64,000 nucleotides of DNA, from positions 1 through 64,000 of the forward strand of contig JAITEB010000028.1 of the NCBI GenBank assembly GCA_031282245.1. Reading direction: 5' to 3'. The position numbers and the translations under genes are program-made. The notes under the pieces are model-generated. The model ran no database searches. It saw nothing but the letters and a program-made list of their open reading frames with translations, and was not told the DNA's origin. The stretch comes from Oscillospiraceae bacterium. Lineage in GTDB: Bacteria > Bacillota > Clostridia > Oscillospirales > Ruminococcaceae. Each line of letters begins with the position of its first letter. Positions within the stretch are counted from its first letter, which is position 1. Shown here one piece after another: positions 47,538-47,815 of this stretch.

Positions 47538-47565
47538 TTGACAGATTTAAAAATCTGTGTATAAT
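47538..47565 (+). promoter_or_regulatory. Promoter of the ABC-F gene with internal palindrome
   Basis: TTGACA (47538-47543), 16 nt, TATAAT (47560-47565), both consensus. The spacer is almost filled by ACAGATTT-AA-AAATCTGT (47541-47558), a perfect palindrome with 8-bp arms that may be a repressor operator. Confidence 0.75.
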
Positions 47566-47640
47566 TAAAAATATCAAGTAAGATTGGCGCTGAAAAGATG
47601 ATTTATATTTCCCGTTAACATAATTTATATTATGGAGCGC

Positions 47641-47688
47641 ATGAAAGTGCGGGACGGAAAGGCCGTCTCTGTTTTTGTGCCGCTTTAG
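47641..47688 (+). CDS. Leader peptide of the ABC-F gene
   Basis: A 15-codon frame, MKVRDGKAVSVFVPL, or 13 codons if the in-frame GTG at 47647 is used; GGAG (47634-47637) is 9 nt before that GTG but only 3 nt before the ATG. The stop at 47686-47688 touches the 5' strand of the proposed antiterminator. A still shorter frame (MIYISR, 47598-47618) precedes it without a good ribosome-binding site. Leader peptides on which antibiotic-bound ribosomes stall are known for ABC-F and erm genes. Confidence 0.4.
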   Translation: MKVRDGKAVSVFVPL

Positions 47689-47795
47689 CGGGAAAATGAA
47701 TTTTTTGCCAGGCTCTGATTTTTTTATTGCACAGCTTTGCTATGCCTTATGGTCAGGCGCGGGAATTTATTTTTCCCGCGCTTATTATATTCTCT
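47688..47795 (+). promoter_or_regulatory. Attenuator: terminator and competing antiterminator pairing
   Basis: Terminator: GCGCGGGAA (47757-47765) with TTCCCGCGC (47773-47781), then TTATTATATT. Competing pairing: GCGGGAAAA (47688-47696) is perfectly complementary to TTTTCCCGC (47771-47779), so only one structure can form. A ribosome finishing the leader peptide would mask 47688-47696 and favour termination; one stalled early by a drug would leave it free. This mechanism is inferred. Confidence 0.6.
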
Positions 47796-47815
47796 ATGGA
47801 GGCAAAGCAAATTAT

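Follow-up and report, generated by a model that had tools for sequence, protein, structure and literature searches.

An ABC-F gene sits behind roughly 244 nt of leader: what controls it, and which part of that leader would register the antibiotic? We asked this for a gene of an Oscillospiraceae bacterium, using a stretch of 64,000 nucleotides (assembly GCA_031282245.1, contig JAITEB010000028.1, positions 1 to 64,000; hereafter the window). A preliminary description had placed a ribosome-stalling attenuator in front of an "Lsa/CplR-like" gene and had taken a 15-codon leader ORF as its sensor.

Results

The gene and its leader

The ABC-F protein matched the NCBIfam model of the Lsa family (NF000167) over its full length (1–486) with 707.5 bits; since this lies below the curated cut-off of 750, we call it Lsa-like instead of a curated Lsa member. 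It passed the general model for ribosomal-protection ABC-F proteins (NF000355, 456.5 bits with a cut-off of 380), its best solved structure was Lsa(A) (E 3e-120), and it is 60.6% identical to plasmid-encoded Lsa(E). The CplR model gave 175.6 bits against a cut-off of 780. By these scores the gene is Lsa-like and not CplR, so that only the first half of the earlier label stands. The product is probably an antibiotic-resistance protein, resistance being its predicted function. The genus has no second genome, and the variant described here thus rests on a single assembly.

The features of the leader are collected in Table 1. As the promoter is perfect, transcription is expected to start near 47572, which sets the leader length given above. 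An 18-nt inverted repeat at 47541-47558 (ACAGATTT-AA-AAATCTGT) takes up the promoter spacer together with part of the -35 element. A search of the whole genome for a repeated operator found no second good copy, so the repeat would be a local operator or a chance occurrence. An Rfam scan of the window and ten related loci returned tRNAs only, with no family at gathering score over the leader.

Table 1. Features of the leader and of the gene behind it (positions in the window)
Feature	Position	Strand	Basis or remark
Sigma-70 promoter, TTGACA-16 nt-TATAAT	47538..47565	+	12/12 consensus matches
Degenerate ribosome-binding site of the uORF, GGCG (GGAG in relatives)	47586..47589	+	Aligned leaders and covariance-model alignment
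Predicted sensor uORF, MIYISR-stop (ATGATTTATATTTCCCGTTAA)	47598..47618	+	Position of the relatives' conserved uORF; model trained without the window finds the leader
Segment 1 (TTTCCCGT), 5' arm of the anti-antiterminator core	47608..47615	+	Complementary to segment 2; P 0.985 without ribosome
15-codon ORF (MKVRDGKAVSVFVPL-stop), judged incidental	47641..47688	+	Not conserved; a ribosome there gives no switch in silico
Segment 2 (GCGGGAAA, 47688-47695) with extension	47688..47703	+	Common to anti-antiterminator and antiterminator
Candidate arm masking the ribosome-binding site of the ABC-F gene	47736..47747	+	Pairs with 47800-47811, 92% complementary, P about 0.84
Segment 3 (GCGCGGGAA), 5' arm of the terminator	47757..47765	+	Stem complementarity
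Segment 4 (TTCCCGCGC), 3' arm of the terminator	47773..47781	+	Stem complementarity; 47764-47779 is also the antiterminator partner of segment 2
Expected termination zone, weak U-tract	47782..47795	+	Tail ATTATATTCT behind the stem; predicted position
Ribosome-binding site of the ABC-F gene, GGAGG	47798..47802	+	From sequence
Lsa-type ABC-F ribosomal protection protein, 489 aa	47816..49285	+	Family-model scores and structure match

The terminator stem, already described as a 9-bp GC-rich one, indeed consists of nine perfect pairs between segments 3 and 4 and closes a loop of 7 nt. Equally sound was the earlier remark that a stretch further upstream is perfectly complementary to the 3' side of this hairpin: GCGGGAAAA at 47688-47696 faces TTTTCCCGC at 47771-47779, and the resulting antiterminator helix can be extended to 47688-47703/47764-47779 with 81% complementarity. 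The leader folded 6.1 standard deviations better than its dinucleotide shuffles (z -6.1), and when segment 1 was held fixed and the rest shuffled, none of 2000 leaders equalled its combined complementarity.

A family of four-segment leaders

Leaders of related genes were obtained through a protein search (n=134) and their four segments placed by a scoring script that requires a terminator; the scheme fitted 108 of them. Segments 1, 2 and 4 read TTTCTTGC / GCAAGAAA / TTTCTTGC in canonical relatives and TTTCCCGT / GCGGGAAA / TTTCCCGC in the window. Because TTTCTTGC appears twice in the relatives, once at the end of a uORF and once in the 3' arm of the terminator, with GCAAGAAA between the two, segment 2 can pair either with segment 1 or with segment 4. 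Across 65 distinct segment sets, 1:2, 2:4 and 3:4 pairing lay above all 1000 among-leader shuffles. An alignment of 35 leaders, with the window excluded, had 90.7% of cells paired in the repressed structure (about 50% in shifted versions) and 93.5% in the antiterminator, percentages that are somewhat flattered because the relatives' segments were located partly by complementarity. Independent of this are the shuffles, which correct only partly for shared ancestry, and a blind model match. In the repressed structure 17 pairs were changed on both sides and 0 of 500 shuffles were as good; for the antiterminator, shuffles reached the measures in 0 to 11 of 500.

The blind match came from a covariance model (R1) built from the same 35-leader alignment without the window. 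It gave a single match in the window, at 47578-47790 (64.3 bits, E 2.4e-11), and matched in 33 of the 149 genomes searched, the window's own included. Every one of the 30 matching loci that were fetched has an Lsa-like ABC-F gene just downstream, which on sequence grounds makes this a leader type dedicated to that gene. The same predicted switch, its pairing letters and tiny peptide both rewritten, stands ahead of genes of this family in numerous Gram-positive bacteria. A strict DNA pattern of the canonical uORF gave 0 matches in 391 genomes of the class; it was too strict to be informative.

Several loci showed peculiarities. Leader L118 provides, besides the window, another example of a uORF ending in SR (MRRISR-stop), with segment 1 TTTCTCGC and a differently rewritten segment 2, GTGAGAAA; its R1 score is weak (18.9 bits), which leaves the four-segment scheme less certain there. 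At L010 (G021:C174:13930-14266; L010 1017-1353) two adjoining R1 matches precede one Lsa-like gene and are perhaps a single leader with an enlarged loop. A Propionispora genome (L048) and a bin labelled Caldisericales (L050) share the same leader and an identical ABC-F protein, which would reflect either recent transfer or a mis-binned contig.

A ribosome on the upstream uORF flips the predicted fold

The uORF that carries segment 1 has six codons; neither it nor segment 1 figured in the preliminary description. Its counterpart in relatives typically lies 200-240 nt upstream of the ABC-F gene and comprises GGAGnTGAAAAG, an AUG and codons ending in TTTCTTGC, with peptides such as MRNFSC, MIILSC and MDISC (common form Mxx[FLI]SC-stop). 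The rewriting of the segments in the window altered this form to MIYISR-stop; the window's uORF is predicted to be translated.

We folded the leader at successive transcript ends with ribosome footprints masked. Without a ribosome, the anti-antiterminator of the window reached P 0.985, and the terminator 0.98-0.99 once its hairpin was complete. With a ribosome on the AUG at 47598, the antiterminator had 0.74-0.81 (0.79 at transcript end 47781, 0.74 at 47790) and the terminator 0.00-0.09 (0.03-0.09 at these two ends); the flip required a footprint out to about +14 from the AUG. With the transcript just long enough to include all of segment 4, 101 of the 108 leaders favoured the antiterminator when a ribosome was present and 5 when it was absent. 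Once the whole terminator was transcribed and full equilibrium allowed, the terminator was favoured in about half of the relatives despite the ribosome, and in the window it regained the lead at transcript end 47815, when the ribosome-binding site of the ABC-F gene has been transcribed. Since the equilibrium reverses with longer transcripts, the model relies on co-transcriptional timing.

The same folding bears on the 15-codon ORF, which lies within the anti-antiterminator hairpin, between segments 1 and 2. Were it the leader peptide, drug stalling there would free 47688-47696 for the antiterminator, and several features fit: its ATG follows a GGAG at 5-nt spacing, it ends at segment 2, and segment 2 is real. 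A ribosome masked at its start, by contrast, left the anti-antiterminator at 0.98 and the terminator at 0.98-0.99, and one masked near its end covered segment 2, so that the antiterminator fell to 0.00 with the terminator again at 0.98-0.99. Moreover, an ORF with ATG and Shine-Dalgarno sequence starts at the corresponding place in just 3 of 108 related leaders. Masked folding and lack of conservation together led us to discard this ORF as the sensor, a role we consider highly improbable. The ORF and its ribosome-binding site do exist as had been described, and an attenuator gated by a ribosome agrees with the comparison, the covariation, the blind model and the folding; the sensor that had been named is almost certainly the wrong one, the conserved sensor being the upstream uORF, here MIYISR-stop.

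We propose the following switch. In the absence of drug, the uORF would be translated and cleared by its ribosome; segment 1 would then pair with segment 2, the terminator would fold and RNA polymerase would stop. A lincosamide, pleuromutilin or streptogramin A, drugs of the peptidyl-transferase centre, would hold the ribosome at the uORF start codon, where it would shield the RNA to about 16 nt beyond the A and so cover segment 1. Segment 2, set free, could pair with the loop and 3' arm of the terminator (47764-47779) and allow transcriptional read-through. The trigger would be occupancy of the start site and not the peptide sequence.

Comparison, covariation, the blind covariance-model match and folding strongly support an attenuator, and we put at about 0.85 the probability that this leader governs the Lsa-type ABC-F gene as a vmlR-type, ribosome-gated attenuator of transcription. 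Complementarity, covariation and folding agree on the mutually exclusive anti-antiterminator, antiterminator and terminator of that type; the block of the anti-antiterminator by an occupied start codon of a tiny uORF is an in silico result. The identity of the drugs, and termination and read-through in the cell, we infer from the analysis.

Degeneration or masking as alternatives

The uORF site of the window reads GGCG and not GGAG, and the U-tract is weak, so induction may be poor here. Taken further, the leader could be the degenerate remnant of a once working switch, now near-constitutive or uninducible; the altered site and the tail ATTATATTCT would fit this. Yet all four segments have changed jointly with their pairing kept, which points to continued selection, and the promoter is perfect. 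We regard such a remnant as unlikely.

An ordinary terminator might also be combined with translational masking of the ABC-F ribosome-binding site, with no transcription antitermination at all. Such a reading could draw on the candidate masking arm in Table 1 and its ability to pair across that site, and it runs counter to the conserved and covarying 1:2 and 2:4 pairing. Nor did masking rise above its control in the family: the site was paired in 89 of 96 leaders and in 87 of 96 shuffled controls. As the control was paired nearly as often, we dropped family-wide masking and retain the single pairing in the window as a possibility; masking as the whole explanation seems extremely unlikely. The ribosome-gated attenuator remains our preferred reading.

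Peptide sequence or start-codon occupancy

The uORFs are mostly 1 to 7 codons long, and segment 1 begins 7-12 nt from the start codon in all leaders except one. In 43 leaders, almost all from Paenibacillaceae, the start codon is directly followed by a stop (AUG-UAG in 18, AUG-UAA in 15, AUG-UGA in 7, GUG-stop in 3), a class that remains a prediction since these start codons were chosen by segment scoring and lie far (about 12 nt) from the ribosome-binding site. Among those predicted are AUG-UAA uORFs in L039, L051, L055-L058, L063, L066, L067, L074, L078, L081, L083 and L113, and AUG-UAG uORFs in L042-L046, L062, L065, L080, L085, L090 and others. Placed on the protein tree, the start-stop label requires at least 8 changes, 3 of them forced by well-supported branches.

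Because the peptides are not conserved and 43 leaders are of the start-stop kind, these leaders probably respond to a ribosome stopped on the start codon, not to a peptide. In the common form, the SC codons would simply be the pairing sequence itself: when segment 1 of the window was rewritten to TTTCCCGT, the peptide end became SR. The rival view is that an [FLI]S[CR] tripeptide, conserved at the protein level, arrests the drug-bound ribosome as in erm/msrD leaders. Many relatives do encode Mxx[FLI]SC, but besides the start-stop class there are peptides as short as MI-stop, MK-stop and MRK-stop, and the window encodes ISR; the uORF codons follow the RNA pairing, and vmlR accepts other uORF codons (PMC9226507). 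A conserved arrest peptide, as in leaders of the Erm/Msr type with their peptide-specific macrolide stalling, was not found among these relatives, whose peptides shrink to a start codon and a stop. We set aside a peptide-specific FSC stalling motif, since RNA pairing explains the codons better, and consider tripeptide arrest very unlikely. A stricter claim, that the leader of the Lsa clade is a peptide-free antibiotic sensor in which only the ribosome-binding site, the start codon and segment 1 at 7-12 nt matter, we hold at even odds.

Discussion

The proposed mechanism is a known one, that of vmlR, with cplR close to it. In the Bacillus subtilis vmlR leader, as here, an anti-antiterminator, an antiterminator and a terminator follow a tiny uORF near the 5' end; it is induced by drugs that stall initiating ribosomes, and its uORF codons are partly exchangeable (PMC9226507). 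That study placed a toeprint at +16 and describes lincomycin and retapamulin as drugs that stall ribosomes during initiation (PMC9226507). The vmlR leader differs in its uORF (MIN) and in a NusG-dependent pause hairpin that has been described for it (PMC9226507); the likeness drawn here is one of mechanism. In the present family a single segment 2 serves two near-repeats, segments 1 and 4, and the controlled gene belongs to the Lsa type. The Clostridioides difficile cplR leader likewise combines a tiny uORF with a terminator/antiterminator switch induced by lincomycin and retapamulin, whereas its uORF is MR[I/M], its terminator stem itself masks the ribosome-binding site of the gene, and the gene is CplR (PMC10201436). 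In the Streptomyces ARE5 leaders are5sc and tiaA, lincosamides, streptogramin A and pleuromutilins also stall ribosomes at the uORF start codon, with another gene family and other uORFs, MLV and MVGDDDISG (PMC12421871).

Published uORFs are MIN (VmlR), MR[I/M] (CplR), MK[L/Q] (VmlR2) and MAGN (LsaA) (PMC10201436). The last of these is likewise a tiny uORF ahead of the same gene family, with a consensus that differs from that of the window family (PMC10201436). Model R1 matched neither the Lsa-like leader of Enterococcus raffinosus (L142) nor the lsa(B) record (L140). It did match the leader of plasmid lsa(E) (L139), which was outside the training set, with 102 bits (E 3.7e-19); this leader has the four segments TTTCTTGC / GCAAGAAA / GTAAGAAT / TTTCTTGC and the uORF MYNFSC. 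Unlike the window it keeps the canonical segments, and its terminator lies about 130-140 nt farther from the gene. The Mxx[FLI]SC / start-stop leaders were absent from Rfam and from the literature searched, chiefly the main texts of freely available papers, and the family is apparently undescribed in that literature.

Between terminator and ABC-F gene, L139, L087, L104 and L109 carry about 130-160 extra nt, with small ORFs in this stretch in L087, L109 and L139. Separately, L139, L140 and L141 have in common a ACCGACTTTG-type motif, with which a CAAAG ahead of GGAGG could pair. The motif with its CAAAG, and the extra stretch, may represent a second, translational attenuator.

The family offers a likely induction mechanism for widespread Lsa-type resistance genes, the mobile lsa(E) included. 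These leaders amount to a natural compensatory experiment, in which the segments were rewritten jointly and the peptide changed as a by-product. The start-stop uORFs bear directly on the question of whether the peptide is read or whether a ribosome need just occupy the start codon; if the prediction is true, AUG or GUG followed by UAA, UAG or UGA, chiefly in Paenibacillaceae, would be the smallest possible sensor of an initiation-trapped ribosome.
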